From Cloeon dipterum (Eukaryota; Arthropoda; Insecta; Ephemeroptera; Baetidae), in the NCBI RefSeq assembly GCF_949628265.1, contig NC_088788.1:8618001-8682000 (forward strand): DNA of 64,000 nucleotides, read 5' to 3'. The notes under the pieces were generated by a model. The model made no database searches. It worked only from the letters and a program-made list of their open reading frames with translations, and was not told the DNA's origin. Below are positions 1 through 62,118 of this stretch, one piece after another. How positions within the stretch are numbered: the stretch's first letter is position 1; every line of letters begins with the position of its first letter. The translations under genes and the position numbers were made by a program.

Positions 1-160
1 TTTTGGTTTATTTCCACTACAGCCGAGATATTCATGGTCGAACTTTTTCCAAAATATGTTTTTCCGGAAAATTAGCATCAAAATTTATCTGCGGACACAT
101 ATTTCATACCTTAACTCATACCTGAAAATCACGATTAGGTCATTTCAATATCATTTTTAG
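1..160 (+). other. Intron preceding exon 3 of copy 1
   Basis: The acceptor TTTTTAG ends at 160, where exon 3 of copies 2 and 3 begins. No match to their exon 2 (which encodes IGYWDGEPS) is visible, so exons 1 and 2 of copy 1 should lie upstream of the window. Confidence 0.5.
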
Positions 161-3100
161 AGTGACGTGTGCATTGATTGTCCACTACTCATATTCCAAA
201 AACACGGAGAAAAGCCGTGAGGAATACGACAGAAAGGACGTAAAAAATTTGAAACAATGTCTGGGAAGATATGCAAGAGTCTTCGAGACCTCGGAGCATA
301 AAAGAGACGTGCTCAACTTGATAAGCAGTGAACACAGACTTAGAAGAACTTTTAATCTGCGAGGTATGTTTAATTATTTAACAGCTTTTGGTTCATACAT
401 GTATGTAATTGGCTCTGCTTGAAGCTGATGAAGAGCCGGAACTGTTCTTTTTGTTCATAATGACTCATGGTAAAGAAGGTGGCCGCTTGTACACTCATTT
501 TGAGCATGAATATTTCACCGTAAATGATGTCTACAGACGGCTTAATAACAATCGAATTCTTGAAAAAGCTCTGAAAATTATCATCATATCGGTATAGTAC
601 ACGTTTTTAAGTTTGTAGCATAATTGAAAGGTAATTAACGCAATTTAGGCTTGTCGTGGAGATATAAGAGATGACATCGTTCACTGGATTGGGAATGCGA
701 ACGAGGTTGAATTAAAAAATGACGTTCCAAGCAAAACGATTGGGAAGGGAAGAGATACGAACCTCAACGCAGTAAGAGTGACGGCAGAGCCAAACAAAGA
801 TAATTTCATCACCATGTTTGCCTCCGTCGAAGGTACCAAATTAATTATTTTCTGTAGATTTAATTAAATTAATTGCAAATACGTAGAAACATGTTCATAC
901 AGCAGCAAAGAAGGGACATCTATCTGCGAATCCTTCTGCAAGTGCCTCAATGTTTTGGAGAAAGACGTCAGTATTGTTGAGTTTCTGACAAGAGTCATGT
1001 TCTACATTGACCGAGCAATAAACACATGTTATGGATACGGTGAGACGCCGGAAGTGAAGATTTTCAAACACAGAGAATTAACTATATCAAAAAAGTTTGC
1101 AGGATCAGATAAGTCGTAAGATCTTTAAATTAATTTGTTAATTTTGCCATTTAAAAAAATTATCAGCGTGCAACTGGCTCTAAGAAATGTAAACTACGAC
1201 TGGATTTCTGAAAGGCACAAGCTTATTCTGAAGCGGAAAGCACATTTCTGCATTTCATACCAGAGCAAGGACGGGCCCAACGTTTCAATCCTGCAAGATT
1301 TGCTATGGAGCAATTTTGGTCTGGAAGTTAAGCAACACGATTGTTTAATGACGCTCGCTCATTCTAGTTAGTACATTTTTTATATTTTTGTGCGATTATT
1401 TACTCATATAAAAATCAGTTTCAGCCAAAAGCGAGGAAGAAGATGGATGTGTCTTCATATTCATTGTGGCTCCACTAAAAACTGACGAGAAGACCGGCGA
1501 AATTTTCACCAAAATCGAAGATGGATATATTCCGATTAAACGAGTTCTCTACCAATCCATTGGGCCAAACACTGGAAACTGGATCGGAAAGCCAAAACTG
1601 TTTGTGTTTCTCAATTCTTCTGACGCATCGACCTCAAGGGACTCTTATTATGATGTGTGCCAGGTAATTGAACAAAGCCAAATATTTAAAATTAAAGTCT
1701 AAAAAATGCACTATTTTTTCAAAGGTTTACAAAGAGAGTGATTTCACTAGAAGTGGTACCATTCACGCTGGCCTACTAACCCTGATTCTGCCACAACAAA
1801 GTAAGAAAGCAATAAATTTTCAAGCGTTTTGTGTTAATTGATTGGGTTTTAGATGCTGTAAAATTTTTCAACGGTGAACTAGAAGAATACACAAAATCGG
1901 GAAAAATGAGAACTTCAACATTTCAGCAATTCTTTACTGACGTTCAACGCAAAGCAATGAACACGTTCGAAATAAAGCCGATGATTGTTTCAACTCTTGA
2001 AATGATGCTTGGCATGTCTTTCCCATGCCAAACTGTTGCCAAAAACTTCATTCTAACGGGTGTGTACAAAAATGTTCGAGTTTCGCTGTCTGCACTCAGC
2101 AATATGTATATCGGGATCCTGAGAGGAAGTACAAGAGCGGCCACTTCTCGACCAGAAATCATGGCTATAGAGTGCATATCGGCGGATTCAGATCGAGCGC
2201 ACGTAGGACGAGTCGAGAAGTGCGTCGTGGAAATGAAGTGTGAGTACACGGTGTTCATCATTTCCGCCAACGCCGGCTGGGGAGCGTCTGCGTTGACTCA
2301 AATTCTGAATTCGAGGGTCCGCGAAGAGGAGAGAAAAATCACCAATGTAAACTTGAGAAACGACAGCGAATTTTATAAGGCGTTGAACGACTGCAATAAA
2401 GATTACAAAGCACTCTTCAAGCAATATTGGCAGTTGAAAGGGCAGCCGCGCCCTTTTGGAAGGAACGAGCTCATCGTTCTGGACAACCTGGACGGTTTGC
2501 GCAGCGTAGAACTGGAAGACGTGCTCAAGATGGTGCGCCAGATGGCAAAAGACAGGGTTTCTCTGATGATATCCATGTGGCCTAAAAGCGAGGAAATTGT
2601 GGAGAAGAGTCTCAAGGGAATTTGCCCAGTGACCATTGTGCACATCAACCGCGCCTCCAGAGAAAATCAGATCGCCTTGTTGGAGAGCAGGATCGGTGGC
2701 TGCGTGGAGAGAGACGTGATCGAGAACATCTTAGAGGAAATTGAAAGGGCAGGAGCTGGCGACCTCACCGAGAAAATCGGCTTTCTTGAGTTCTTGGTTA
2801 CTTTCCCCAACCTGACAAGACAAGAATCTGTCAACATTTACGCGTTGAGTAAGCACGTGTTCGACCTGACGGTTGAAATGGTCCTGCATAGAATTATTGG
2901 CTTGCCTCCGTGGTCAGGAAAAAACAAAAAGTATCGCAAGGAACACAATAAAAAGCTCTCGATTCTCTCCCAATTTTACTTTTGCGACACTCCAGTGAAA
3001 AATGACTTTGAATATGAAACGAATCTGGAGCATTATGGCATTGTTCGCGTATTCGAGTCACGAGTAGATGTTTTGAGCAAAACTTTGGTGGCCTACCTGT

Positions 3101-3252
3101 GCTTGAGTCAAGGCTCGATTTCGGTCAAACAGATCAGCAAGATGCCCGATGAGAAACGAAAAATTCTCGAGAAGATGTGGCGTGACAAAGATCAACTGAA
3201 TGAAGAATCCGATTGTAAAATTAGGACAAGGGAAGCTTCACGTTTTTCATAA
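161..3252 (+). CDS. Caspase / pseudo-caspase / STAND NTPase protein, copy 1 (5' end outside window)
   Basis: Exons, by alignment with copies 2 and 3: 161-363, 425-591, 649-832, 887-1115, 1167-1366, 1425-1663, 1725-1800, 1853-3252. All junctions are GT/AG and in phase, giving about 899 residues from the third exon onward. Domain 1 is caspase-like: CALIVHY strand, THG (catalytic His) and SACRG (catalytic Cys), followed by a p10-like part (NFITMFASVE, then SSKEGTS). Domain 2 (from 1167) has caspase strands (GKPKLFVFLN) but no His/Cys. The last exon holds the NTPase (FIISANAGWG). Its Walker A lysine is replaced (GWGAS), and the STRP of the other copies reads SMWP, while the Walker B LDNLD remains. 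A nucleotide-binding defect is inferred. Where copies 2 and 3 have an intron before the NTPase, copy 1 reads straight through about 40 extra codons (about 2120-2238). AATAAA signals lie at about 3252 and 3298. Confidence 0.72.
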
Positions 3253-4558: not shown

Positions 4559-7500
4559 ATGCCACTCTTCAGCAAGCAGAAAGAAAGTGAGTAATGAGAA
4601 TTTCCTTCTTTTTCAATTTTACAGCTTTATTGTTTTGCTTTGAGATATAAAAATGAATTGAATTAAATTCCTGGCGAGTTTGATAGAATTATTACCGGAG
4701 TTTATGCATTTAAATTTCGAATAGCTGCTGGATACCACTTAAAGTGTTTGCTTTTTTTGTTATGAATGATAGGGAAATGAAATATTTCAAAATAAAAACG
4801 AAGTATTGCTTGCTTTGCTCCCGGCGCACGGCATTTCAGTAAAATGCTCGTTTCTTTGCTCTCTTCCCCAAGCATGAATGCTCTAATTGTCCTTAAATAT
4901 AGAGTTATTTGATTATTCTCTTGCACTCAAACGCACTGGAGTTCTTATTGCCGCAAGTACTCATTTCCCTTTAAATCATGCGTGATACATTTCAAGAAAC
5001 AATTTGTACTGGTTGAAAAAATATTAAGAGTCGAATGCCATAAGCGGTTTTGTCTGATGCAAGCTTCCTACTTAAAAACCCGGTTGAATTAGTGTTGGAG
5101 ATTGATGCGCCTGATATTAAGTTATGCGTCTTTAGTTGTCAGGATGCTTGCATGAAAAGAACAATAAAAAATTTCTACCAAAATATCGAATTTTAATGTC
5201 TCTTAAGGGTCACGCTCATAAAACAAAAGGTCCTAAATATATTATGCTCTGTTAGCATTTCTGATAAATTAAACTGAAATTTATTTTTAGATGTGCAACT
5301 TTTTAATATTGAAGATTTTGTTTAGGACTTAATATTTAAGTCTTAAGATGACATCATAACTCAAGAAATATTTCAGATCCTATTTCATTTTAAGAAATTT
5401 TTCAGATAAAAAGGGAACGGACGTTTCCTCAAACACGGAATATCTCCATCTCTACATGACGAAATAAGGCACTTATTAACTTAAGCATAATTGGCTTTTC
5501 ATAATTCAACAGCAAATAATTCATTTATTCGTCTGCAACTGCTCTTTTAATAACCAAAGAGTTGCTGGACTTTTTAAATTTGGTCTTGGTTACTCCGTTT
5601 TTGCGTTAAGTTTCTGGAAAATAATTAAGTCACACCAGGCTCAACCCTTTTTTTAAGCTTTGGTTGTTAAAAAAAACCAACTGTTTAATGTCTTTCACAT
5701 ATTTCTGTTATTTATATCAACAGAACCAGTAAAGGAAAAACAAAGCATTGGCTACTGGGACGGTGAACCATCAGAAGCTGTTGGGTATGTTATTTCTCAA
5801 TATTTTTAAAGCATGCAATTAATATTTTATAATTAAGGTAAAATTCTAACATTTGCATTTAAAATTTATAGAATAACCTGTGCATTGATCATTCACTACC
5901 ATTTTGCAAACTGCTCAACAAGAGCAGCTAGCAAAAGTCAACCATTGTCAGATCTCGGCCAAAGCAACCAAATCGACATTGAAAACCTGGAAAACACTTT
6001 GGAAAATTACGCACGGATTTACAAAATTTCAGGGACCTCAGAAGAAGTGAAAGATTTTCTCTGTAAAGAAAAATCCTTTAAAAAAAAGTTCAAGTTGCAA
6101 GGTGTGTATAAATCTATACATATTATCAGCTGCATTATACGGATATCAAATTATGAAATCAAAAGATAAATAAACATCTCGCACCAGCGGGGACCAGATT
6201 CGTGCGACACGTAGATATAGCGTCCGGTGGCTTACAGCGCGAAATAATGGTCACGTGAAAATGCGCGGGAAAACACAAGTATTGGTCAATATTGTGACAC
6301 AATTTGTATTACTCTTAACTAATTGTGTCTTTTGGATCGTAAAAACAAACTCTTGGCACTCGTTCGGGAATCCAAAGAGAGTTTTTTGTTTCCCACATTC
6401 ATACGCCATCTTGTATCTGCGCAGTGGGAACAAATTTTATCACACTTCTGGCCCCCGCTGTCTCGCACTTTGCTAAATTGAATATTTTTATAGAAAATGA
6501 GGAGCCTGAACTATTCCTTGTCTTCATTTTGACCCATGGAAATAAAAACGGAAAGCTACACACTCATCATAAGAATGGAGAAGACTACTTCTATTTATGC
6601 GACGTGTACGATAAAATCCAGCAAAATTCCAGCCTGAAAAACGCTCTGAAACTCCTATTTGTTAGCGTAAGTCAGTGGTTATAATAGTTATAATATTTCG
6701 CTGAGTGTTGATTTTTTTTAAAAAAAAAAATTAGGCGTGCCGAGGAAAAATTATTGACGGAGTGGTAAAAAGAAACCAAAATTGGAATACGGAAGCAAAC
6801 TACAAGACCGTCAAAAATCAAATAGAAGAAATTAAAATGACCTACCTAGATAGGAAAAAGAAAACTAACCTCGACGCAGTGCGAGTGACGGTTGAGCCAA
6901 ACGAGAAAAATTTCATTACCTTTTTTTCTTCCGTCGAAAGTACGTGAAACTATTATCTTTATTTTTTGATTTAATTAATTTTTGTTATGTGTAGCGACCG
7001 CTTCGTTTAGCTCTAAGGAAGGATCTTCCACCGTTATTGCTTTCTGCAAATGTTTTCATATGATAGCGAAGGACGTTGAACTTGAAGAATTTCTAACCCA
7101 AATCATAAATGAATCTGATTATATTGAAAACCAAAGAGGTTATGAAATTGGATCGACACCTGAAATCAAAGTTATGAAACATAGACAACTCACTATCTCC
7201 AAAGTCGGCCGAGAATCAGAGTATTTGGCTAATCATCATATTTTTTCTTTCCAACTAAATTTTACGAAATTAAAATTTCAGATTTTATACAGAGTTAAGC
7301 TACCTTTGGAAATCTAACAAGAATGTCCTTCTTTCGGGAAGAAAAGCCCATTTTTATGTGCATCCACAGAGCAGAGATTTCGAAAAGGTTCCAGATTTGC
7401 AGAATATTCTTTGGAGCGAATTTGAATTTGAGTTGAAATTTCACGTAGATCTTCAGTCTCTAACTGATTCTGGTTTGATAAATAGATATTGATAGCAATA

Positions 7501-9240
7501 AAAAAAACTAATAACATTAAACTTCAGTTTCGGCTGCGAGCGAAGACTCTGATGGCTGTGTCTTTGTATGCATTGTGACCGAACTCCGTGAGCTGAACAG
7601 TGAAGTGCACGCCAAAATTGACGAAAAATATATTGCTATTAAGGATTTCATTTACCCGACGATTGGTCCAAGCACTGGAAATTGGATCGGCAAGCCGAAA
7701 ATTTTTGTATTTCTCAATACCATAGACACAACGAAAAAGCGAACTCGTGGTGAAGTGTCCCAGGTGATTAAAAAGTATAGAAATAATTAAATGTCCTATC
7801 ATTTTTCTTTTAATATATAGATTTACGAAGAAACCGAATTCTCAAAATCCGGGACAATTCACCAAGGCTTGCTAACGCTGATCCTGCCTCAGACAAGTAT
7901 GCATATGAAATCTCAAGATGAGTGTAATTAAGTTTAAGCCGATTTTCCTCTAGATTCTGTGCCGTTTTTCATTGGTCAACTCAAGGATTTTACTCGGCGT
8001 GACAAGATGGAAAAAACCACCTTTCAGGAATTCTTTTTTGCCCTGCAGCAACAATCAACAAGCACGTTTAGAATCAAACCAATGATCATATCAACCCTTC
8101 ATTTAAAGTTGGATATGGCGTTTCCACCCAAAATCATTGCTAAAAATTTAACCCTGTTGGAGGGGTTAACCAGAAAGCCCGTGTCTTTATACAAGCTCTG
8201 GAAGAAAATTGATAAAGTTATAAAAGGTAAGTAGAAAAAATTCCAAATGACAGCTTTTACTCATTAAAATTGCGATTTTAGGGCAGGCTGAGTACACGGT
8301 TTTCATCATATCCGCATATGCAGGTTGGGGAAAGTCAGTTTTGGCCGAAATGATCGCCAATCGGGCCGAAGCAGAAAATATAGTCGCAATTTTGGACCTC
8401 AGGAAAAATTCCGAGTTCTACAAGGCGCTGAACCGTACAAAAGAATACCGAGACTTATTTGGAACATACTGGAAGATAAATAGAAAAAACTGCTCATCAG
8501 ATATGCCTCAGTTCATCATCCTAGACAACATAGATGATTTGATTGGCGAGAATTTACTGAAAATGGTGGCGCAGATGGCAACAGATAAAGTCAGCCTATT
8601 GATATCGACGAGGCCCCAGAACAAGGATAATTTGGAGATGCACCTCGAGGGGATTTGCCCGGTGACCGCGATCAGCATTGACACTGCCTCCAGAGAAAAA
8701 CAGATCGATTTCCTGCATCGTAGAATTGAAAGTTGGGTTAATGAAGACATGTTAGAAGAAATACTAAATTATTTAGATTATTGCGGTGGAGATGACCTGA
8801 TTGAAAAGTTGGGTTCACTCGAGAAAGTCGCTTCTTATCCGAAATTGACCGGTAATGGAAACATTTACGAGCTAAGTGAGCACGTATTCGACTGCACAGT
8901 CCAGACGGTCCTGCACAGAGCCTTTGGTTTGACTGATGACAAAAGTGGCAGATTTAAAGAGCTGCGCAAGGAACACGAGAGACAACTCTCTATGCTCTCA
9001 CACGATTTCTTTATGGACAATACGGTAGAAGAGCATTTTTTGGAAAATATCACAGTTCTTGATGGCTACGGAATCACCACAATCATCGAGTCCCGGGTGG
9101 TGGTTTTGAGCGTTACTTTGGCCGCCTACCTATGCGTCAGTCAAGGATTGATTTCAACGGAAGAGCATCTCAAGAAGGTTCAAGAGCTGAAGCATTTAAA
9201 TATTCTTAGATTTATGTTGCAGTGCAAAAGGAATATCTAG
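4559..9240 (+). CDS. Caspase / pseudo-caspase / STAND NTPase protein, copy 2 (complete)
   Basis: Exons: 4559-4586, 5724-5784, 5872-6101, 6494-6666, 6735-6939, 6995-7220, 7282-7472, 7528-7763, 7821-7896, 7954-8226, 8282-9240. They sum to 2658 bases (885 residues plus stop), all in phase. The start MPLFSK is conserved in copy 3 and followed by GTGAGT. Domain 1 (about residues 30-300) is caspase-like, with His121 in LTHG and Cys166 in SACRG, 45 residues apart as in caspases. Domain 2 (about 308-566) is a caspase fold by pattern (FVCIV, GKPKIFVFLN, KPMIISTLHLKL) without catalytic residues. Domain 3 has Walker A AYAGWGKS (Lys584), Walker B IILDNIDD (Asp648) and STRPQ (Arg677). There is no CARD, DED or other death fold at the N-terminus, and no LRR, WD or TPR repeats at the C-terminus. 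A cytosolic signalling protease switched by nucleotide is inferred; substrate and trigger are unknown. Intron 3 holds a hAT-like MITE. Confidence 0.8.
6185..6460 (+). mobile_element. hAT-like MITE, copy A (intron 3 of caspase-STAND copy 2)
   Basis: A 276-base non-autonomous element. It starts CAGCGGGGACCAGATTCGTG and ends TCTGGCCCCCGCTG, so the termini are inverted repeats. It is flanked by a perfect 8-base duplication, TCTCGCAC (6177-6184 and 6461-6468). The 8-base duplication and CAGCG terminus fit the hAT superfamily. It is absent from the matching introns of copies 1 and 3. It has no coding capacity. Confidence 0.85.
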
Positions 9241-9997
9241 ACAGAATAGTCATCATAAGGGGCAAATCAGGCCGAGTCATGTCACGACAGTAAGGTTTCA
9301 AAAGCTGCTTCATTTTCATTACTTTCCCTGTTATATTATTCGCCAAATATAGTAAGATGGCATTTTTGTTCTGGGTTAATCCCTGGCCACAAAGATCAAA
9401 TTTGTGATTTGATGCGATCACCACGAGACCTGAATGTGAGGACGCATTGAAGGAGTGCATCAAGGGAATCTGCCCTTTAAATTGTAGAAATAAATTGTCA
9501 ATTTAAGGAGGAACTATATTTCAAAACCAACGTGGTAAGATTTATTTGTTTCCAATTTAATTATTTCAAAGGGGTCAAACTGTTTTTGTCTAATTTTGTA
9601 TTTCAATATAACCATTTAAACCATTTTTGACACTTGTTTAATTTGCCAAGCCCCTCAGCTCGTGTAAATTGTAAATGCAAATTAACCGTTCACACTGTAT
9701 TACCAAAAACAAGCAAAGAAACTCAGCTTTTTATTCGCACATTAATTTTAAATGATAAAAATTTTTAAATTAACTTCCTGCAAAATTTATTTGTAATAAT
9801 TGTAGGAACGTCAGACTTATCAATTAAATGCGTTACTCAATTCGTCTTTCCATTATTATGTAATGTTGCTTAATCAACATTATCGAATACAATTATGAAA
9901 CCTTCAATCAAACTTCCAAATAAATTTTGAAATAAATTTGAATTTTCACTACATTATAGCAAGGTCCATTTTATATTTTTGATAATTGCAGAGCAAT

Positions 9998-10080
9998 TTG
10001 TTTATCGATCAACTGCTTATTGCATCCATTCTCAATTCAAATAATTTTCAAGTGTTGCCTTACACCAATCCACTTACATT
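9998..10080 (+). repeat. Fragment of the TTAA MITE family, second duplicate
   Basis: Near-identical to the fragment at 3745-3840 and in the equivalent place downstream of copy 2. Confidence 0.5.
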
Positions 10081-10444
10081 TTTTTAATATAGTAAATTCT
10101 GAAAATTAATAGTTGCTTGGTTCTAATTTGATCGCAGCAACCTATATAGAGATGAAATGTTGCTACTTTTCACAAAGAATAAGTTCATTGTTTCTGCTAT
10201 AGAGCAAAATTTACAATTTGTTGTATATACTGTATACATCCCATGCACTTTAACTACCAAACACCGAATTGGTGAGCTACTTGTGGAGTTACCTAACGGC
10301 CCTATCAGGTTTTGTTATCGATTTCATTATTTGGCAACCTATTGTAAAAGCGGTGAACTTTAATTTTTTTACCTAACAGTATTAAAATTAGTTAATTTCC
10401 GCGTTACATTTGGAATTTAACCAAAATCTAATTACACCGTCAAG

Positions 10445-10495
10445 TATAAATATTACAAGAAAACAAAAACAATGTGTGCAGCAGTGAAATTCAGT
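10445..10495 (+). promoter_or_regulatory. Candidate core promoter of copy 3
   Basis: TATAAATA (10445-10452) is followed by GCAGTG (10481) and TCAGTG (10491), parallel to the block before copy 2 but with about 6-10 extra bases between the elements. Confidence 0.3.
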
Positions 10496-10807
10496 GTTTT
10501 TTCTGGGTTGTCCTGATAAATTAGAAATTTGTTGATTTCCGTTACGATGAACACTTAAAATTTCACAGTATATATGAGTTTCGTGGAAATATAAACGCAG
10601 TTACATAAACCAACTATTTTTACTTAATTTGTTGTAATTAAATAACAAAAGTATGAAAAAATAAACAATTTGTATCCTGTCAGCTCAAGAAAACAGTCAG
10701 AGCTGAAAAATCATCCACAGAAGGAGGTCTGGTCTACTCTTATACCAGCCAAAACAGGGCTGTTTTTTTTTTTGTTTCGGTATTCAAATTCAGCACTTGG
10801 CTAAAAA

Positions 10808-13800
10808 ATGTCACTCTTCAGCAAGCGAAATGAAAGTGAGTAGTGAGGTTTAGCTTCTTTTTCTTTTTTACAGCTTCATTGTTTTTCTTTGAGATATAAA
10901 ACTGAATTGAATTAAGTTCCTGGCGAGTTTGATAGATTTTTAACCGGAGTTAATGCATTTAAATTTCGAATAGATGCTGACGAGTATCACTTAAAGTGTT
11001 ATGAATGATACGGAAATGAAATATTTCAAAATAATAACGAAGTATTGCTTTGCTCCCGGCGCACGCCATTTCTGTAAAAATGCTCGTCTCTCTGCCCTCT
11101 TCCGTAAGCATAAATGCTCTAGCATTTCTGATCAATTAAACGGAAATTTATTTTTAGATGTGCAACTTTTTAATATTGAAGATTTATTTAGGACCAATAT
11201 TTAGGATTGGTAGTTTAAATTTTAAGATGGCATCATAACTTAAGAAATGATTTCACATCTTATTTCATTTTTAGAAGTTTTTAAGATAAAAAGGGAACGG
11301 ATGTTTCCAAAAACAACTCTACATGACGAAATAACGCACTTACTAAATTAAGCATAGTCGGTATTTTTTTTTCATAATGCAACGGTAAAAATCTAATTCA
11401 TTAGTCTGTTTTATTCGTAATTTTTAGATTTGGTCTTGGTTGCACTATGTTTGCGTTAAGTTTCTGGAAAATAATAAAGTCACACCAGTTTCAATCCTCA
11501 TTTTACAGAGCTTTGTTTGTTAAAAAATAATGACAACTGACTATTGTCTTTCACATATGTCTGTATTTATATCAACAGATACAGAACAGAAAAAACTAAG
11601 CATTGGCTACTGGGACGGTGAACCATCAAAAGCTGTTGGGTATGTTATTTCACAGTGTTTTTAAAGCATGCAATTAATATTTCATAATTGTCCAGTTGCT
11701 TAAACCCATAGTGTTCGAAGCCACCAACAGATGACACACCCAATTTCTTAAATTTTTTGTTTTATTGCACTTCTGCTGCGATTTTAGACTCAATCTAGCT
11801 ACGGTGCGTTGCTAATTTATTATGCTTTCGTTTGACGTACTGGAAACAAAAATCAGTCCAGCCATTCGCCGTAGAAACGTAGGAAATTTTTTTATTTCAA
11901 AAAATAGTTCTCACGATTCTACGGCGATTGGCTGAACCGATTTTGGTTTTCAGAACGTAAAAAGAAAGCATAATATTAAATTAGGAATGAAGAGTAGCTA
12001 CATTAAGTCTGAAATCGCAGTGGAAGTGCATTAAAACTAAATTTTTAAGAAAGTCTATGGTTACGCCATCTGTTGCCGGCTTCGGACACTTAGGGTTTAT
12101 GCAACTGGTCAATTAAGGTAAAATTTTAATATCGCATTTAATATTTATAGACTAACCTGTGCATTGATCATTCACTACGATTTTTCAAACTCTGAAAAGT
12201 TTAATCGCGTCAATGGCGACCGAATGGACATTGAAAACCTGGAAAACACTTTGAAAAATTACGCACGGATTTACAAAACTTCAGGGACTTCAAAAGAAGT
12301 GGAAGACTTGCTTTATAATGGAAAAAAGCTTAAAAAAAAGTTCAAGTTGCAAGGTGTGTATAAATCTATATTATCAGCTGCATATTAGATATCATATTAT
12401 GCAATCAGAAGAAAAATAACACTTAGCTAAAACGAATATTTTTACAGACGATGAGGAGCCTGAACTATTCCTTCTCTTCATTTTGACTCATGGAAATAAA
12501 AACGGAAGGCTATCCACTCATCATAAGAATGGAAAAGACCGCTTCTATTTATGCGACGTGTACGCTAATCTCCGGCAAAATTCCAGCCTGAAAAATGCTC
12601 TGAAACTTTTATTTGTCAACGTAAGTCAGTTTCATAATAATAATTATTATATTTCGCTGAGTGTTGATTTTAAAAAATTAAGGCGTGTCGTGGAGAAATT
12701 ATTGACGGTTTGGTAAAAAGAAACCAAAGGCGGAAAAGGAAAGCAAAATATAAGAACGGCAAAGATGAAACAGAAGAAATTAAAATGACCTACCTAGATA
12801 GGAAAAAGAAACCTAACCTCAACGCAGTGCGAGTGACGGTTGAGCCAGACGAGAAAAATTTCATCACCTTTTTTTCTTCCGTCGAAAGTACGTCAAATAA
12901 TTATCTTAATTTTTTTATTAAATTCATTTTTGTTATGTGTAGCGACCACTTCGTTTCTCTGGGAGCATGGATCTTCGACCGTCTTAGCTTTCTGCAGATG
13001 TTTTGAGATTTTAGAGAAAGACATAGGACTTGAAGAATTTCTAACCCGAATGATGTACCAATTTGATGTATTTGAAAACCAAACGATTCTTAAACTTGGG
13101 TCAACACCTGAAATCAAAGTTATGAAGCATAGACAACTCACTATCTCCAAAGTTGGCCGAGAATCAGAGTATTTGGCTAATCATGATTTTTTTCTTTCTA
13201 ACTAAATTTTACGAAATCAAATTTTTAGATTTGATACAGAGTTAAGCTACCTTTGGAAATCTGACAAGAAACTCCTTCTTTCGGGAAGAAAAGCCCATTT
13301 TTATGTCCATCCACAGAGCAGAGATTTCGAAAAGGTTCTAGATTTGCTAAATATTCTTTGGAGCGAATTTGAATTTGAGTTGAAATTTCACAGAGATCTT
13401 CAGTCCCTAACTGATTCTGGTTTGATAGATATTGCGATAGCAATAAAAGAAACTAATAACTTTTAACTTCAGTTTCGGCTGCGAACGAAGACTCTGATGG
13501 CTGTGTCTTTGTATGCATTGTGACCGAGCTTCATGATGTGAACTGTGAAGTGTATGCCACAATTGACGAAGAATTTTTTCCTATTAAGGAATTCCTTTAC
13601 CCAACAATTGGTCCAAGCACTGGAAATTGGATCGGCAAGCCGAAAATTTTTGTATTTCTCAATTCCACAGAAAGAACGAAAAAGCGACCCTATGGTGAAG
13701 TGTCCCAGGTGATTAAAAAAATTCAAATGTAATTTAATATTTTATAATATTTCTAATTTAATATTTAGGTTTACGTAAATACCAAATTCTCAAAACGCGG

Positions 13801-15203
13801 GACCATTCACCAAGGCTTGCTAACGCTGATCCTGCCTCAGACAAGTATGCATAAGAAATCTCAAGCTGAGGTGTAATTAATTTTAAGCCGATTTTCTTCT
13901 AGATTCTGTGCAGTTTTTCATTGATCAACTTAAGGATTTTACCCGGCGTGACAAGATGGAAAACACCACCTTTCAGGAATTGTTTTTTGCCATGCAGCAA
14001 CAATCAACAAGCACGTTTAGCATCAAACCAATGATCATGTCAACCCTTCATTTAAAGTTGGATATGGCGTTTCCACCCAAAATCATTGCTAAAAATCTAA
14101 GCCTGTTGGAGGGGTTTACGAGAAAGCCGGTGTCTGTATACAAGCTCTGGAGGAAAATTGATAAAGTTTTAAGAGGTTAGAAGAAACAAAATTCCAAATG
14201 ACAGCTTTTACTCATTAAAATTGCGGTTTTAGGGCAGGCTGAGTACACGGTTTTCATCATATCCGCATACGCAGGTTGGGGAAAGTCAGTTTTGGCCGAG
14301 ACCATCGCCAATAGAGCCGCAGCAGAATATAAAGTCGCAATTTTGGACCTCAGGAAAAATTCCAAGTTCCAAATGGCGCTGAACCGTACAAATGAATACC
14401 GAGACTTATTTAGAACATACTGGACGATGATGGGAAAAAACTGCTTTTTAGACATGCCTCAGTTCATCATCCTGGACAACATAGATGATGTGATTGGCGA
14501 GAAGTTGCTGAATATGGTGGCGCAGATGGCAACAGACAAAGTCGGCCTGTTGATGTCGACGAGGCCCCAGAACATGTATAATTTGGATATGCAACTCGAG
14601 GAAATTTGCCCGGTGACCGCGATCAGCATTCACACTGCCTCCAGAGAAAAACAGATCGATTTTCTGCATCGCAGAATCGGAAGTTGCGTTAATCAAGACA
14701 AGTTAAAAGAAATACTAAATTATTTGGATAATTGCGGTGCAGATGACCTGATTGAAAAGTTGGGTGCACTTGAGAAAGTCACTTCTTATCCGAAATTGAC
14801 CGATAATGGAAACATCAACATTTACGAGCTAAGTGAGCACGTATTCGACTGCACAGTCAAGTCGGTCCTGCACAGAGCCTTTGGTTTGACAAATGACAAA
14901 AGTGACAAATTCAAAAAGCTGCGCAAGGAACACAAGAGACAACTCTCTATTCTCTCACACAATTTCTTTATGGACAATAAGGTAGAAAATAATTTTGTGG
15001 AAAATATCACAGTTCTAGATGACTACGGAATCACCACAATCATCGAGTCCTGGGTGTTGGTTTTGAGCGTTACTTTGGCCGCCTACCTATGCGTCAGTCA
15101 AGGATTGATTTCAACGGAAGAGCAGATCAAGAAGTTGCCCCAGCAAGAGATTCTTAGAAATATGATGCAGTGTAAAAATAAAATCAGGACAAAGGCAAAA
15201 TAA
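10808..15203 (+). CDS. Caspase / pseudo-caspase / STAND NTPase protein, copy 3 (complete)
   Basis: Exons: 10808-10835, 11579-11639, 12151-12353, 12448-12620, 12683-12887, 12943-13168, 13229-13419, 13473-13708, 13769-13844, 13903-14175, 14233-15203. They total 2643 bases (880 residues), all in phase. Exon lengths equal those of copy 2 except exon 3 (27 bases shorter) and the last exon (12 bases longer). Domain 1 keeps LTHG and NACRG; the residue before ACRG is Asn rather than Ser. Domain 2 again lacks catalytic His/Cys (VTEL and VFLNS at the expected sites). The NTPase has intact AYAGWGKS, IILDNIDD and STRPQ. Similarity to copy 2 is very high through exons, introns and flanks, so the two separated more recently than copy 1. 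Intron 2 holds a 421-base inverted-repeat transposon. An AATAAA lies at about 15260. Function is inferred as for copy 2. Confidence 0.8.
11690..12110. mobile_element. Long-inverted-repeat (foldback) MITE in intron 2 of copy 3
   Basis: A 421-base element whose two halves are inverted repeats along nearly the whole length: CCAGTTGCTTAAACCC at the left against the reverse complement of GGGTTTATGCAACTGG at the right, and CGCCGTAGAA against TTCTACGGCG near the centre. Intron 2 of copy 2 (5785-5871) is the empty site, reading ATAATTAAGG. In copy 3 AATT occurs on both sides (11686-11689 and 12111-12114), giving a 4-base target duplication. Confidence 0.82.
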
Positions 15204-15560
15204 TCTGCTTAATTTTAATTACTTTTACTGTTTGTTCATAATACGACAATCAGCAGCTCGGAATAAATAGTTAACTGTCTCTAAAATTTACAGCCCTATG
15301 GTATTAGATGTAGATATAAATTGTCGATTTAAGCAAGAACTATTATTTCAAAACGACGTGGTAAGATTTGTTTGATTCCATTCAAATAATTCACAGGGCC
15401 CAAACATTTTGTATGCATAATTATTTAGTAAAATAAAACCCCTTCAACAATTTTGGACACTTGTTTAATTTGCCAAGCCCTTCTCAGCTCGTGTAAATGC
15501 AAATGAACCGTTCACAAGATATTTCCAACAACAAGCAAAGAAACACGAAGCTTTTTCATT

Positions 15561-18500
15561 CGTTCAGCGCGAAAGAAACGAAAGTCTCGGCGATGCTGGT
15601 TTGCGTTTCACACGGATTTTAATTTTTAATTAGCGCCTCTAAGTGCGTCGCGCATTCAAATGGTTTTGTTTACCTTTATTCGGCGCGGATGCGAGTTCAT
15701 TAATGCGCGCGGCGGCCCACTCGGCGCCGCAAACAATGGCCGCGCACCGATGAATTAGCCGTGGAAAATGGAATCGTGGGCGCGAACACGACACGCAGAG
15801 CACAGAACAGACGTGGACACGCTTCTTGTCGCAAAACATTGACGATTTTCACTCCCGGAGACGACAAGTACGTGTATTTTGATTGCCCACTGGTAGCTGC
15901 GCTTGCTCAGCGGTGACAATTCGTGAAAGGCTGAGCTGCTTTGGGCTTGAGCGAACGCCTGGCAACGCTTGACGCAAATATTTAATTCAAATAAGAAAAT
16001 TTTTAATTTCAAATAGGACTGATAATGTAAAAACATGGAAAATTATCAATGCCTTTAGTATTTAGTAAAAAGCTAAATTTTAACTAGGTATATCATCGTT
16101 TATTTTATTTTTTATGTAAAGAAAAGTGACTGCACAGTTAGCATGCTCCTCTAAAATGGTGAGAACAGTTTGTTTCACCATAAAAACAGTTCCTCCATAA
16201 ATTGGCATCCACCATTGTCTAGATCATAGCGAGAGGAAACTAAATCTGCCGGAAAAGATGTAAATTTCGGAGAAAATTGGCAAAATTTGAATTATTTCTT
16301 ATTGCACATGCATGACAAATTGATAATTTGATCAAATTCTAGCCCTAATCAACAATTCAAATTAATATAAAATGTTTCCCTGAATTAATCAACTTGAAAA
16401 ATTTAATTTTTAAAAGAGGAAAAATTAAACGCGTTCATTATTGCAAAAAAAAGAAGTAAAATTGCCCTTCTCTTGAGAGATCACACACAAAGGCTGTCAT
16501 TATACACTGCAAGGCTCACTTTGAATTTTTTAATGCGCCAGATTTCATGCTTCAAATGCCGGGCTGACCTTGCCTCCGGTGATGCGCCCGACGCTGCGAC
16601 TGAGTGAGATGCTTTTGTGCCGCGTCCGATGGGATTTCATATAAAAAGAGCACGATCATGATCAACTTTTGTGTCGGCTTAACGCTTAATTCCCATCATT
16701 CATCTCGATTTTATCTCTAATTCGTCTGCATTTGTCGCATTCGAATTTCCAAAACAAACAGTTTAGCCGTGCGAGAGTGCGTGCGTGTGATTAATTTAAT
16801 TACTAATCTGCGAATCGCGTGCAGCTCGCCATCACGAAGTCTCATTCATATTCTGCAAGGCGGGAATTTTTTTGAATGGCTGAATAATTCGTTAAAAATT
16901 AAACTCGTCGGAAACGAAAAAAGTACGGCGTTTGGAGCTCGAGTTTTCGGTGCGTGGGTCCGCCATTCAAGCGAGACGATGTAATCGCTTTTGTTTGGGG
17001 GCACGCAGCACGTTCCTCGTGGCATCCGGCGACCAAGAACAAGGGAAAAAGTGCCCATTGTCCGAGACAAACAGAGCAGACGTGGCCAATCGGAAATAAT
17101 GGAGACGCCAAGCAAACAAACAACTCGTTTCTTGATCTGCGGTATTTCAAGACGATCGGTTTAATCACCTCTAGGCCGGATTTAAATTTCAATTAGCGCG
17201 TTGCTTCCGCTTTCTCACCGATTCCAACGACCTTAGCTTCTCAACAATGCCGAAAACGAGCCGCAGACACGCCGACAATGCTGTATGTAATTTCGAGCAG
17301 CTGGATCGGAGCTGCATGAGCTGCCACTCACAATCAGGTACACATGTTTTGTGCTCTCTCTATGTAATTAGCATCGAGCGAGAGAGCAAAATGGGCCGAG
17401 CTTTTTGCCGACGAGCCAAGCAAACTGGAATTCAGGTTAAGGACTGAACTGCAATCGATTCCAATATTTGAATATTATATCTCTGCGATTTTCCGATTTT
17501 CATTTCACTAAAAGAGCCAATTAAGGAGAATTTATTCTGGCAGCCAATCGAGTTAATTGCACAATGCAACTGCTTAGCGTAATGGGCGACGATTTATATT
17601 GTTGGTTTTGCTTTCTTGGAAAGGCCCGCGGCGTCCATTGCACACACACACACACACACACAGTCAGGCAGAATTTACCTACAATGAAAGAACAACAGTC
17701 TTGCATTGAATGCTAACTCGGCAGACGATAAATAATTCGTGCCGTCGGCCAGTGGTGATGAAAATCATGCGCCCTATCATTACAGCCTCGCTCAGTCGTA
17801 AATATATCGGCGCAGCTCGATTTTCGAAATAGCATTCATTTTCTTTTCATTCAATCCGCTGAGTCTCATGCGAACGTTAATTGTTGCATTTCAGCTATAA
17901 ATAAAACCCTGCGCTCCCTGATTACAACAATTTTCGCAGCCTTTCTCTTCGGTTTTCGTAATTTACACACTGTAACTTTCCACCTTTCAGTTCAAAATGC
18001 GGACTTTACAAGCATGAGCTCACAGTCAACATAAAATTTATTAAAAAATGCAGTTGAGCGCGGGAATAATGCAAGAATGGCGTGTCGCGGGTGTGGCGAC
18101 GCTCGCTCGTCTCTTGAGAAAATATAAAGTATATAAGAATTCGTGATGCTCGACTTGCAGCAAGCAAGCGAGTGAGATTGAAATTGTGCGTCGCAGGCCG
18201 GCCATTTTCTTGATTCAAGTCGAGATTTACTCTGGCAAAGACATATTATTAATGCATGTTGAACAGGCTTTGCGTACGAGCAGAGCAGGGAAGCGTTAAA
18301 GTGATTGTACCATTCGTAATTATTTAAAAGCGCACCGTGATTTGTCGTCGGCGCAACACAACTCGTTTATAATTCTCCATGCCTGGCCTGTCTCTCAGCT
18401 TTTCAAATAAAATTGATTGCCATGCGAATAATGACGCGAAGAGTAAAATTTAAAGTAGCGCTGCAGTTGGAATTTCGTTTTTGACAGTGCCAATCAATGC

Positions 18501-27387: not shown

Positions 27388-30305
27388 TTATCCCTGCTGC
27401 CTGTAGGGGAAGTCGTCGTATTCGTACTCCTCGGTGTCGTACGCCTGCTGCTGCTGCTGCTGCCTGGCGGGGGCGGCCTGCACGGGGGTGGGCACCCTGC
27501 GCTGCTGCAGGGGGATGTTGACGGCCTCAGGAGTGTGGAAGACCTGGTTGCGCGCGGGGGCGGGAGCGGGCCGCCTCTGCTGCTGCACCTGCTGCTGCTG
27601 GTGCTGCTGCTGAGCCTGCTTGGAGACTGGCCTGGAGGCGGCGGGCTGCTCAGGGTAATCGTTTTCAGGGTAGTACCTGTCGGAGTAACGAAGGGTCGTG
27701 TTGGGCTTCCTGGCAACCTCCTCGGCGTTCACTGGCTGGTACAGGTAGTCGTTCACGAAGAAGTACTGCGAGCTCTGCGCGCAGATGTTGTCGTGCGATG
27801 GCGGCATGCAGATTAAATGAACCTGACGAGCAATCACAAATAAATTCAGGTCATTTATTGACGAGAAATTGTCAAATTTAGATAGCATAACTTATCCAAT
27901 TTTTTTTAATTTTACAGTGTAGAAAAATTACCTGAACTCAGACATATATTAAAGAAATTCTTTTTCCGTCCTACCAGGCGTGACAAATATTAATTTATTT
28001 TTAACAATACCTTGAAAATGTGCAAGGTTATAAAATTCTGACTGAAAAAAAATTGAAATAAAGAGCAAAAGAATACTCCCGAATTTAAAAATGATATTTA
28101 ACTAAATTAAACCCATGCATTTTTTAAGTGTTCCTCAAACGGTTTAATTATCCCTGATTTTTTACTTTCGTAATTTTAATCCAGCCTTATTTGGGTTTGG
28201 TTCCTGACCAGAAAAAAAATATATTAAATCTAAAGCTGTTATTCTCCCGCAATAAAAAAGAAAATTACCTGGTGGAAGGTGAATCCATCAGGGCAGACCC
28301 AGGAGTGCTTGGCACCCTCCTGGCAGTAATGGAAGACCTCGCATCCAAGCCCCTCGTCAGCATAGTATCCGGTGGTCTTTTTGTCGCATTCGAACTTGCT
28401 CTTGGGCAGCAGCTCCTGCAGTCTGTCGGGACGCGCCTCCTCCTCTTCCTCCTCTTCCTCTTCAAACTCGGCGGCCAGCGCGGCTAGGTTCTTGGACGGG
28501 GCGCCACGGCCCTTGGGCGCGCCAGAGGGCTTCTTGGGGGCCGGCGCGGCGTACGAAGCCTGGTACTGCGGGATGCTCGGCGCAGCCTGTTGAGGCCGGG
28601 GTGCCGCCCTCACCGGCGCACGGTACTCCTCCTGCTCCTCAGAAGACACACGGAAGCCCTGCGGCACCGCGAACTGAGGCGCCTGGAAACGTGGAGCCTG
28701 AAAATAAACATGATATATTATAATTAGAAAAAAATCATATTGATAATAAATTTTGTTAAAATAAATAATTGATTTATCTTCGATAGCTTATGAAACTATC
28801 ACTTCCCTGTCATTCTTATAAATATTTATGACTTTCTAAGTACTTGCTGAAAATTTCTTAATTTTATTCTAGATTGTGCAATGGCCCTAATTACCGTTAA
28901 TTGTTAATAAATTAAAATTAATTTTGATATTATTTAATATCAAAACGATAGATTATACTATTTTTTTTTTTTTTTTTGAATCCTCAACCCCAGTCAACTC
29001 CGAAATATTATTGAACGGTGCTTCTTGATCTTGGCTGTGCAAGATACTCCTCTTTTTAATTAAAATGTTATAAAATTCGCAATAATACAACATAAAATTA
29101 GATTCAGTGTGCAAAGTAGAGCAGTTAACCAATTTTTTTTCATATCAGGATTTTTAACTCACCGTAATATGCCCCACAGTTGCAAAGAGGATATTTCCGA
29201 ATAAAATTTAAATAGAATAAAGCTTTAAAAACCAGGCTAAACATTAATATCATTAATTTATCAGACTATGAAATAATTTAGGATAGTCTCACAACAACGA
29301 ATTAAATACAAAGCTAACGATCCGAAACTCACATGTCAAATCTGTTCTTCAACTGCTGGTATCTACATGTTTAAAAAGTTGGCTAAAATAATTGCCTAAA
29401 AATATTACAGTTGAAACCACAATGAACTTTCTTTCCCGTCCCATTTTTATTAGATCATAAGGAATATTTTGTTTTGTAGTTTACTCACTTCTATTTACAT
29501 ATTTTTACAGGATTAAAAAAACTTTGCGACGGTAAAACGAATTGTAAGAAAATCAAGAGATTTTGAATGTGACGGCGGAAGAAAATTTAAAATTAGACGA
29601 ACTGAAAAGCATTAAAATCCCTACCCTTTAATTCAATAACAGTTAAAATCGCTAAATTTTTGCCATTTGGAAAAAATTGTAATATTTATTTTGGAAAAAT
29701 CAAATACTGCTGTATAATTTATACAGCCTATCAGACAACAAACAATGTAGATGGACTTGAACATATTGGTAAATGATTATAGCTCTCACAATTGCCGCGC
29801 GAAATTATATTTTTTAAAAAAAGCTACAGAGCTTTTGCTAAATTCTTAGAAGAAGAATTTAACATATTTATTAATTTGCAAAAATAATTATTTTGGTAAA
29901 AAAATAATAATTAGTTTTAAAAAAATATGTATGAATGTTTTTTAATTCTTTTATTGATAAAAAATTAACATTAAGTTTAAATTATAATTTTAAACGCAAC
30001 ATTATTAAAATAAATTGAACACAAACTAAAATGTCAACCTTTTATTTTGCCAAAAAAATTGGTTCGGCTTCCCTCGTTGTGGCAATTTTACAAGATGGGA
30101 TTTTGTTTCTCACCTGGAAAGCAGAGGGCTGGTGCTGGACGGGGGCTGGCTGGGCCCTGAGCTGCTGGGGGGCCTGCTGGTGGCGCTGGGGCTGGGCCCT
30201 GGCGGCGGTGGGCGCGGGGCCGAATTGCACGGGCCCGCCGTTGAACTGCGCTACGGCTACCGCCGCGCAACAGCAAATCGTAATCCACGTCGCGAATGGC
30301 TGCAT
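27388..30305 (-). CDS. CPAP1-type cuticular protein (single peritrophin-A chitin-binding domain)
   Basis: Coding exons (minus strand): 30305-30114, 28697-28269, 27822-27388. They total 351 residues, all phase 0. The ATG begins exactly at the exon border after TTGCAG. A signal peptide of about 20 residues (MQPFATWITICCCAAVAVAQ) marks secretion. A Pro/Gln/Ala-rich stretch and a run of about nine Glu precede one CBM14 domain at about residues 165-222, with six cysteines (168, 183, 189, 199, 212, 221) and aromatics HYC and SWVC. The tail is Gln-rich. One chitin-binding domain in a secreted protein with a long low-complexity tail fits the CPAP1 family (cuticular proteins analogous to peritrophins), which bind chitin in cuticle. 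Which CPAP1 member it is cannot be decided here. A leader exon lies upstream at about 31190-31156. Confidence 0.85.
28698..30113 (-). other. Intron 2 of the CPAP1 gene
   Basis: 1.4 kb, strongly AT-rich, with a T-run near 28962-28978. No recognisable gene or repeat. Confidence 0.6.
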
Positions 30306-33535: not shown

Positions 33536-35346
33536 TTAATTGCTGGCATGACCTTTACTTCGTACCACTATTGTTTTAAAAAATATTGTTTTAAAAAATC
33601 ATTCGGTGTATTTTCCTCCCTGTTTTGTTTTTAACGACTCACGACTCACGAGATTATAAAGAGAAGAACTGAGTTCAATTTAAAAGTATACCACTGAGAT
33701 TTATTTCTTCTCTTGACTGAAGAAACGCATTTAGAGATTTACTTGCGATTGTGGACGCGAGAGCAGAGGGTTACGCGAGCGAGCGCGAGCGCGCGCGGTT
33801 ACCTCATTGCGAGCTGGAATTAAGGCCCGAGGGTCAGCAGCCGGTCTGCATGTGGCCGAGGCGGACGGGCGCGCGGTCGGGCGGCGGACGGCGGGCGCGA
33901 GGGTGTGGTGGCGCGGAGAAAGTGCTCTCTCGCAGGAGGTTCATGCCATTTGCGCTCATATTATATGCGCTGCTACTTTTTTCCGAGCCAATTTCGCTGT
34001 CAAAATATGGCAAATACATAAATCCGCTCTCAAATCAGTTCATTCGCCCCTTGTTTCTGTTTCTGCGATTGCCATTGCCGCCGGGGTCAGCGTTTGCGTT
34101 TATCGTCGATCGGGACGTGCCCGTTTGAATTTTCAGCCGCTTTTTTTCCTGGCAGTCCGTTTGGTGCTGAATTTCAATTTTCTGCGCGATCGAGCGTTGA
34201 ACTCTCCCTCTCGGCGCCGCCGTCGTGTGAAAGAAAATCAATCCTCTTTTGTCGCGCGAACAATTGCTCATTTTCTGACAGGAACACACACTCTTGCTGT
34301 GCGCGGCTTTGAAAGTTTAGAGCTCGATTAGATTTTTATTGAATTAGAAAGTGTGTCCCCGGTCGGCCCCGTGCAAGTTCAAGGACCTACTAGTTGCCAA
34401 AAAAGATTTATCGCCACCATACCATGTCCGGAGGCGGCACCGCCAACGCGCACATACGATCGAGATTATTTGTTCTTCTTCTTCTTCAAAGACAAACACA
34501 CCGACAAAGAGAAGAAAACAATCATTTTTGTCTTAATTTTATTCCATCCAAGATTTTATTATTAGTTTATAAAACACGATTTAAAATAATTATAACCATT
34601 TTTATAATAAAGGATTAGGAATTCAATTTTTTTAAATAAAAAAAGGCTTTGAACCAATTTAGAAGATTCAAGATTACTCTTCCTATTGCGGTATTGTGTA
34701 ACATAAAAAAATGTAAAAATGTTATCAAACAGCAAGAAAATTGTGATTTGAAGCCTAATTTCCGGGAATAAAATGCTTTTACAAAAATCTATCAAAACTC
34801 AGATTCTAATTTACTTTTTCTGTAAATGTTTTGCAACATTTTATTCATTTTGTAAAATCTCCTAATAATTATAATATTTGTAACAGAAAAGTATTATGTG
34901 CACCAAAAATTTAGAGCACGTTTTCCTCATGCCATAAAATTTTAAATGGCTCTGTAAGTAATGTATACGATTTTAATTGTCGGTCAAGAGTCTGGAAATT
35001 GCGTGATTCGTGCTAATTTGGCGCGCAAAAGTATAACAGACGCTCTCAGACAAAAAAAAAACAGTCGACCGACTGTGTGAATATAAAGGAATTGACATTC
35101 TCGCCTGACTGATTTTCAGGATCAATTGCAATGCAATCTGATTGTCAGATCCTGGTCTCTTGAGCATCCGAAAAGAAAGCAGCTGCGGCAATGGAGAGAG
35201 ACTAAACGATTATGAATGATTCACAGTCGTCAAACCTTAACACTGACCATCGACAAAGATGCGACCGTTAAGATTTCGCCAAATGGAGTGCGATTTATGA
35301 ACTGAATTTCCCTACTGCACGGGGATAAAAAAATCCTGATTTTCAG

Positions 35347-35622
35347 CAGCGGGGGCCAGATTCGTGCGACGCGCAGATATGGCGTCCGATGGAGTATGCA
35401 GCGAAAAAACGGTCACGTGAAAATGCACGAAAAGAACCAAGTTTTCGTAAATATTGTGACATAATTTGCATAACTTTTAACTAATTGTGTCTTTTGGATC
35501 GTAAAAACAAACTCTTGACGCTCGTACGGCAATCCAAAGAGAGCTTTTTGTTTCCCACATTCATACGCCATCTTTGATCTGCGCAGTCTGAACCAATTTT
35601 ATCGCACATCTGGTCCCCGCTG
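35347..35622 (+). mobile_element. hAT-like MITE, copy B
   Basis: Same family and length (276 bases) as the element at 6185-6460, with terminus CAGCGGGGGCCAGATTCGTG. Flanks are ATTTTCAG and ATTTTCAA, an 8-base target duplication with one mismatch. Confidence 0.85.
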
Positions 35623-60734: not shown

Positions 60735-61014
60735 CAGCGGGGGCCAGATTCGTGCGACGCGCAGATATGGTGTCCGGTGGAGTATGGCGCGAACAAAACG
60801 GTCACGTGAAAATGCGCGAAAGGAACCAAGTTTTCGTCAATATTGTGACATAATTTGCATTGCTAATACTATATAATTGTGTCTTTTGGATCGTAAAAAC
60901 AAACTCTTGACACTCGTACGGGAATCTAAATAGAGCTTTTTGTTTCCCACATTCAGACGCCATCTTGGATCTGCGCAGTGGGAACCAATTTCATCGCAAA
61001 TCTGGCCCCCGCTG
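60735..61014 (+). mobile_element. hAT-like MITE, copy C
   Basis: A 280-base member with termini CAGCGGGGGCCAGATT and AATCTGGCCCCCGCTG. It has a perfect 8-base target duplication, CCTCAAAG (60727-60734 and 61015-61022). Same orientation as the other copies. Confidence 0.88.
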
Positions 61015-61886
61015 CCTCAAAGCTAAGCATAACTTAATTTGTTCCTTATATTAGCCATTTTATAATTTTTACTTTTGAAATAAAACTTAATACGTGCATA
61101 ATTCTCTTTTAAAAACATTCTTTAACCAGTATTTCATATCCAGGATTTGATTCTCGCAAGATTTTAAGTAAAAATAATTAACGAACTGGCCAGTCATGTT
61201 CCAACTGTCTGTCTTTCAGTGAAACCCTGATTTCGTGTGTCACGTAACTGTCAGGCAATTATGCCGCGGAGAGGAGTGAAAATTAACAAAACTCGGAGCA
61301 TAAAAAGCGGAGTTGTTTGCGCCAGCTTTCATTAGCGATACGCACGTCGCGCGCATAAAAGCTAATGAAGGCGCGCGTCGACTGCAATTTGCGAAAAAGA
61401 CGCGGCGGTGGCGGCGACTTTTAACATTAAATTCCGACGCAAAATTAGATCGTTGCGCCTGGCGCCGCCGCCACCGCCGCTTTTCCAGCTCACGACGAGA
61501 GGAGGAAAAAAGAAACGCTTTCGGCTATCATCTCATCTGTTGGGCGGGCCCGTCGAGCGGCAGTTATTAAATTTCTCTCGGCGCGGCTCTCATACAAAAG
61601 CACAAAGCACAGCACACATAGGAACAAGCGCTATTATATTGCACTTAGGGTTACCAACCAGCCATTAAAATTAACAATTCTGTGCATTGCCAGTCTAGCA
61701 CTAAATTTGCAGTTTATTATATGGAATTAACTGTATTGGATTAAAATAAGTTCTAAATATTTTAAATTGCAGACCTTCTTTGATATCGCATTTAAAGGGT
61801 AGAATTAAATATGTCTTGAACTAGATTTACTCCAAAAATGACACAAAAATAAGGGTTGGCGAAAGAGCGGACAGTTAAAAAAAAAT

Positions 61887-62118
61887 CAGCCGGGACCGGA
61901 TTCGTGCGACGCGCAGATATGGCGCGAAAATAACCAAGTTTTGGTGAATATTGTGACATAATTTGCATTACTCTTAACTAATTGTGTCTTTTGAATCGTA
62001 AAAACAAACTCTTGACACTCGTACGGCAATCCAAAGAGAGCTTTTGTTTCCCACATTCAGACGCCATCTTGGATCTGCGCAGTGCGAACCAATTTTATCG
62101 CACATCTGGCCCCCGCTG
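61887..62118 (+). mobile_element. hAT-like MITE, copy D (internally deleted)
   Basis: A 232-base member, about 45 bases shorter through an internal deletion after GCGCAGATATGG. The target duplication AAAAAAAT is at 61879-61886 and 62119-62126. The left terminus has drifted to CAGCCGGGACCGGATTCG. Confidence 0.82.

Follow-up and report, generated by a model that had tools for sequence, protein, structure and literature searches.

Caspase, pseudocaspase-like domain and NACHT-type NTPase in one chain: a large candidate NLR-like gene family in the mayfly Cloeon dipterum

In the Apaf-1/CED-4 apoptosome, a STAND oligomer activates a caspase that is recruited in trans via CARD, and caspase-8 and c-FLIP are two separate proteins, brought in by death-fold adaptors. 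Animal NLRs such as NLRC4 and NLRP3 are NACHT-LRR proteins with a central NACHT/STAND switch. Here we describe genes from the mayfly Cloeon dipterum that appear to place a caspase, a second caspase-shaped domain and a NACHT-type NTPase in one polypeptide. They lie in a 64,000-nucleotide stretch (assembly GCF_949628265.1, contig NC_088788.1; C3:8618001-8682000), hereafter the window, and relatives were searched for in a genome of 190 Mb on 10 contigs. A STAND oligomer together with a caspase would be common to these proteins and the apoptosome, where, unlike in the mayfly, the caspase comes in trans through CARD. With animal NLRs they share the central switch, a C-terminal repeat arm in ankyrin-bearing members and the organisation as a large clustered family. 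Unlike animal NLRs, they begin with a caspase and a pseudocaspase-like domain instead of CARD, PYD or DED, and their repeats are ankyrin or none, not LRR. Judged by this domain content, the family members are not classical NLRs.

Coral Caspase-X, compared here by description only, combines an active caspase with an inactive one in a single protein, and its expression in HeLa cells led to a loss of viability (PMC4715348). It was modelled to pair in the manner of c-FLIP with procaspase-8, the inactive domain reducing activity, and the caspase-8/c-FLIP heterodimer is named there as a pair of an active caspase and a pseudocaspase (PMC4715348). The mayfly proteins resemble the latter in partnering a predicted active caspase with a probable pseudocaspase, and Caspase-X in doing so in cis. 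However, the inactive domain stands first in Caspase-X and second in the mayfly proteins, and the accessible part of the source mentions no NACHT for Caspase-X. Bacterial caspase-STAND fusions, known from counter-invader systems (PMC8195603), likewise join a caspase effector to a STAND NTPase, whereas the mayfly caspase is of the animal p20/p10 type, belongs to an intron-bearing insect family and has the pseudocaspase-like domain between itself and the NTPase. LRR-caspase and death-NACHT proteins are described from amphioxus (PMC2575513), and cnidarian NACHT proteins have many partner domains, among which the accessible part of the source names no caspase catalytic domain (PMC8260672). NACHT/NLR genes are reported absent from Drosophila (PMC2575513, PMC11508797), and a metazoan survey describes arthropod NLRs without an N-terminal effector domain (PMC11508797). 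Among the papers listed by searches of the open-licence literature, we found none on a caspase-NACHT fusion in an insect, from which absence cannot be proven. The family is unexpected, since insects are usually described as being without such receptors.

On balance, we consider it rather probable that the window copies are members of a large insect NLR-like family with the order caspase, pseudocaspase, NACHT-type STAND NTPase and, optionally, an ankyrin array, in which the NACHT switch would control the built-in caspase/pseudocaspase pair. At the level of sequence, the architecture of this family is well supported. We read 24 loci, namely a first set of 14 and 10 further ones picked for known caspase matches, and as far as each stretch extends they show one common layout. 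Domain 2 and the NTPase were present in all of the first 14 loci and domain 1, at least in part, in 13; at the fourteenth (geneB) the stretch stops before domain 1, and the genome search gives matches there. In all 10 further loci, the exons for the caspase and for domain 2 follow each other in the same order, and each of the eight stretches reaching that far contains the NACHT.

Three family members lie within the window, and a fourth, copy 0, is found just upstream, in stretch L009 (4128-7548, ~4.1-7.5 kb). Identity is 88% between copies 0 and 1, 78% between copies 2 and 3, and 45-46% between the two pairs. Copy 2 occupies positions 4559..9240 of the plus strand and consists of 11 exons joined across 10 GT-AG introns, with no stop in its product of 885 residues. 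Its domain 1 is encoded by exons 2-6 (5724..7220, plus strand), with FILTHG in exon 4, ACRG opening exon 5 and the p10-like part in exon 6. Domain 2, in which the catalytic His and Cys positions are replaced, follows in exons 7-10 (7282..8226, plus strand), and exon 11 (8282..9240, plus strand) encodes the NTPase and the C-terminal end. Copy 3 (10808..15203, plus strand) repeats this organisation with 11 exons, GT-AG introns and 880 residues: domain 1 in exons 2-6 (11579..13168), the pseudocaspase-like domain 2 in exons 7-10 (13229..14175) and the STAND/NACHT-type NTPase in exon 11 (14233..15203), all on the plus strand. Intron phases match between copies 2 and 3, and the junctions are in phase across all 11 exons. 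With copy 2 as a guide, a protein-to-DNA spliced aligner reproduced the exon borders of copy 3, closing exon 11 at 15185, 18 bases short and before the diverged tail. The original prediction, that copies 2 and 3 splice into a caspase, a caspase-shaped domain and a P-loop NTPase in this order, is borne out; LTHG, ACRG, GWGKS, IILDNIDD and STRP were found in both. Copy 1 (1..3252, plus strand) has its 5' end beyond the window; its exons lie at 161-363, 425-591, 649-832, 887-1115, 1167-1366, 1419-1663, 1725-1800 and 1853-3252 of the plus strand, and its exon 2, together with a candidate for exon 1, lies in L009. In copy 1, exons 10 and 11 form one frame, so that domain 2 is continuous into the NTPase exon.

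Two kinds of repeated sequence accompany the array. Intron 3 of copy 2 contains a repeat element (6182..6460, strand unassigned) of ~280 bases, a length resembling that of miniature inverted-repeat transposable elements, whose relatives, 82-90% alike, lie at 35344-35622, 60735-61018 and 61887-62118 of the window and at 7653-7926 of L009. The segments 9483-9737, 15309-15562 and 8087-8312 of L009 are 80-93% alike and resemble common 3' flanks of the tandem unit.

By its profile matches, domain 1 is a caspase, comprising p20 and p10 with a His-Cys dyad. Pfam C14 matches the copy 2 protein at 1.8e-12 and was recovered in all seven members scanned (best 4.7e-18). Against PDB, the domain 1 profile retrieved CED-3 (1.9e-12) and caspase-8 (2.1e-12), and its p10 matches that of the same genome's ordinary caspase (2.2e-7; score 38.5 against a maximum of 12.8 in 30 shuffles). 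Active-site residues were tallied in the 24 loci only where visible: the catalytic His is present in 19/19 and the Cys in 20/20, both being retained in all four tandem copies. Selection appears to hold catalysis in domain 1, which is predicted to be an active protease. Its motif departs from QACxG: in each of the 20 visible loci, S, N or G stands in place of Gln, and Cys-Arg-Gly is retained; because of this replacement, a preference for Asp should not be assumed. The p10 Arg, which we take to be the S1-pocket residue, is not conserved in the alignment of domain 1.

Domain 2 is probably a pseudocaspase. A profile built from 11 members matched ancestral caspase-6 at 1.7e-5, followed by ancestral caspase-3/6/7, caspase-6 and caspase-8 large subunits, and at the aligned catalytic places His or Cys occurs in none of the 24 loci.

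The NTPase of the window copies is assigned to NACHT because homologous frames elsewhere in the genome pass the Pfam NACHT cut-off (L032 at 2.6e-11, L031 at 5.7e-9 and L030 at 6.7e-8). The central NACHT that marks animal NLRs is thus recognised by Pfam in these three loci, and in the window copies via homology to them only. A window protein aligns to L032 across domain 2 and the NTPase at 9e-20, and the L030 NACHT as a query reaches copy 2 at 5.1e-6 and copy 3 at 2.4e-5. Such homology to clear NACHTs supports the reading of the window NTPase as a NACHT-type STAND domain.

When the whole genome was queried with the L030 NACHT, 118 matches were obtained, corresponding to 107 loci, fragments included; 87 of these have open frames of at least 800 residues, and some of the remainder are fragments. 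Pfam NACHT itself gave 101 matches, and 7tm_6, the insect odorant receptor family, presumably insect-specific, gave 5 in the same genome. Caspase linkage was scored on the same strand at distances of up to 6 kb. A domain-1 caspase match lies upstream of at least 58 of the 107 NACHT loci, and any caspase or domain-2 match lies upstream of at least 64, both figures being lower bounds because the best 150 of 241 matches were taken and 102 of 388 candidates scored. Among those best 150 of 241 caspase-exon matches, 149 sit within 6 kb upstream of a same-strand NACHT locus. A downstream caspase match was seen at 6/107 loci.

Ankyrin arrays are present in three of the five loci fetched (Ank_2 at 7.5e-148, 5.1e-98 and 1.5e-37 in L030, L031 and L032, respectively), and Pfam detected no ankyrin repeats in L033 and L034. 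Genome-wide, at least 29 frames at the 107 NACHT loci have Ank_2 matches (hand count; best 150 of 2272 candidates scored), while an ankyrin query at 1e-3 found nothing in the window or L009. The claim that C-terminal sensor repeats are lacking is true of the window copies but not of the family. No LRR was found by Pfam in copy 2, and L030-L032 carry ankyrin instead. When the complete copy 2 protein was scanned, Pfam gave no CARD, PYD, DED or Death adaptor, as foreseen for CARD and DED, a result whose scope is the N-terminus of copy 2 only. Members without repeats, the window copies among them, are grouped at C3 8.34-8.63 Mb, and outliers lie on C1 and C2; the repeat-less members read on these three contigs have frames open through the NTPase. 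The idea that insects are without NACHT receptors fails for this genome, in which 107 NACHT loci were found; with no LRR detected, the family is not one of classical NLRs. Overall, the initial observation holds but was understated, being made without copy 0 in L009 and the rest of the family.

The exon structure of copies 2 and 3 is real coding sequence, beyond chance. Their comparison, which omits introns 1-3 as well as the 60-72 bases that end exon 11, gave differences at 271/2565 exon positions and at 46/397 positions of introns 4-10. The three exon gaps (27, 6 and 6 bases) are all multiples of three; introns 4-10 contain eight gaps (2, 8, 1, 2, 1, 2, 1 and 2 bases), and not one of them is. 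The 271 exon substitutions would be expected to create ~11.7 stops if unconstrained; none was observed, and 0/2000 simulations were stop-free. The ratio of nonsynonymous to synonymous rates (dN/dS) is 0.117/0.131 (~0.9) for copies 2 and 3, 0.064/0.115 for copies 0 and 1, and 0.447/1.89 (0.24) for copies 1 and 2, where dS is close to saturation. Stop avoidance and these values point to frames kept open over the long term with recent, nearly free amino-acid change. Such a pattern fits diversifying receptors; relaxed constraint is also compatible with it.

By analogy with STAND proteins, we propose the following course of events. The ankyrin arm may act as the sensor of an intracellular cue, its place in the repeat-less window copies being taken by a partner or the NTPase itself. 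Exchange of ADP for ATP in the NACHT would lead to oligomerisation, and the oligomer would bring the N-terminal caspase/pseudocaspase units together. Within one chain, caspase and pseudocaspase could pair as caspase-8 does with c-FLIP, and the active caspase would then cut its targets, the outcome being either cell death or signalling in defence. As receptor, protease and pseudocaspase share one chain, sensing and killing might proceed without a separate CARD/PYD adaptor, which would become unnecessary; repeat-less copies may serve as helpers, executors or regulators. It is tempting to go further and to see here one-piece inflammasomes of an insect lineage, with ~100 germline NACHT receptors, many having ankyrin arms, many having their own protease and pseudocaspase in cis, and the repeat-less members acting as helpers; to our mind, the arguments for and against this extended scenario are evenly balanced. 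If true, a group held to lack NLRs would possess a large sensor repertoire, and the sensing and killing of infected cells in insects would become testable in single genes. With ~107 NACHT loci, and caspase matches preceding at least 58, insect intracellular immunity could be receptor-based, provided that the immune reading is true. With caspase and pseudocaspase in cis, these proteins would furthermore offer a natural test of pseudocaspase control over caspases. The predicted immune or cell-death family is best read as NLR-like in its role, with immunity as a putative part of it.

Several results weigh against this interpretation. In the Pfam search of copy 2, the NTPase alone gave nSTAND3 at 0.0022, below the cut-off. 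The NTPase frames of copies 0 and 1 had no Pfam NACHT at E 1 or better, their top family being unrelated and below its own cut-off, and L033 and L034 fall slightly under the NACHT cut-off. A mixed NTPase profile matched a Clp ATPase best in PDB (3.5e-4), NLRC4 following at 0.0013. The Walker A Lys is kept in 20/22 visible loci, and the exceptions are copies 0 and 1 (1-3252 and L009 4128-7548), which read AGWGAS without this Lys and SMWP without the TRP Arg, keeping the caspase His and Cys; judged from these residues, both probably act without ATP hydrolysis. As for domain 2, its p10 half showed no detectable match to the same genome's ordinary caspases by profile comparison, Pfam C14 matched only 1/11 single domain-2 sequences (at 1.7e-4, with none in copy 2's own domain 2), and the hhalign score of domain 1 against domain 2 (20.6, versus a maximum of 22.6 in 10 shuffles) is no better than chance. 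Because the p10 and hhalign comparisons are null, the pseudocaspase call rests on the p20 half; the second caspase-shaped domain originally proposed is supported in that this half matches solved caspases, with the amendment that, His and Cys being absent, it is probably a pseudocaspase. A by-eye match of the end of domain 2 to caspase p10 was not counted. Finally, the caspase part alone has a dN/dS of 0.172/0.172 (1.0) between copies 2 and 3, which fits relaxed constraint, and nothing in the present analysis ties the genes to infection.

Some of these points could also mean that the window copies derive from ankyrin-bearing receptors, as truncated relics or decoys that have lost the sensor arm and are now regulators or decaying, an alternative that we find unlikely, though deserving of attention. 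It would account for the absence of ankyrin from the window and L009, for the loss of the Walker A Lys and TRP Arg in copies 0 and 1, and for the dN/dS of ~0.9 between copies 2 and 3. However, decay agrees poorly with zero stops where 11.7 were expected, with exon gaps that are each a multiple of three, with the dN/dS of 0.24 for copies 1 and 2, with the catalytic His and Cys kept by all four tandem copies, and with repeat-less members on C1, C2 and C3 that are open through the NTPase.

Keeping in mind that caspases act in development, and that infection does not enter the evidence, one may also suppose that the same architecture serves developmental or physiological cell death or non-lethal proteolysis instead of immunity. 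We regard this as improbable, as the ~107 loci, many of them clustered, the variable repeat arms and the near-neutral dN/dS with open frames among recent copies would rather resemble immune receptor families. That the caspase and the NTPase are separate neighbouring genes, joined by a gene-model artefact, is hardly credible: the fusion was read from genomic exons, but GT-AG junctions are in phase over all 11 exons of copies 2 and 3, the order recurs in 13/14 first loci (those reaching domain 1) and 8/10 later ones (those reaching the NACHT) with mostly short introns, and in copy 1 domain 2 continues into the NTPase exon, a single frame spanning exons 10 and 11.

Two further features of the window were recognised by eye. 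On the minus strand at 28239-28787, one frame shows cysteines spaced in a chitin-binding (peritrophin-like) pattern, and kinesin heavy chain-like exons, encoding a motor and a coiled coil, extend over 45716-51918 of the minus strand as an ordinary gene further along.

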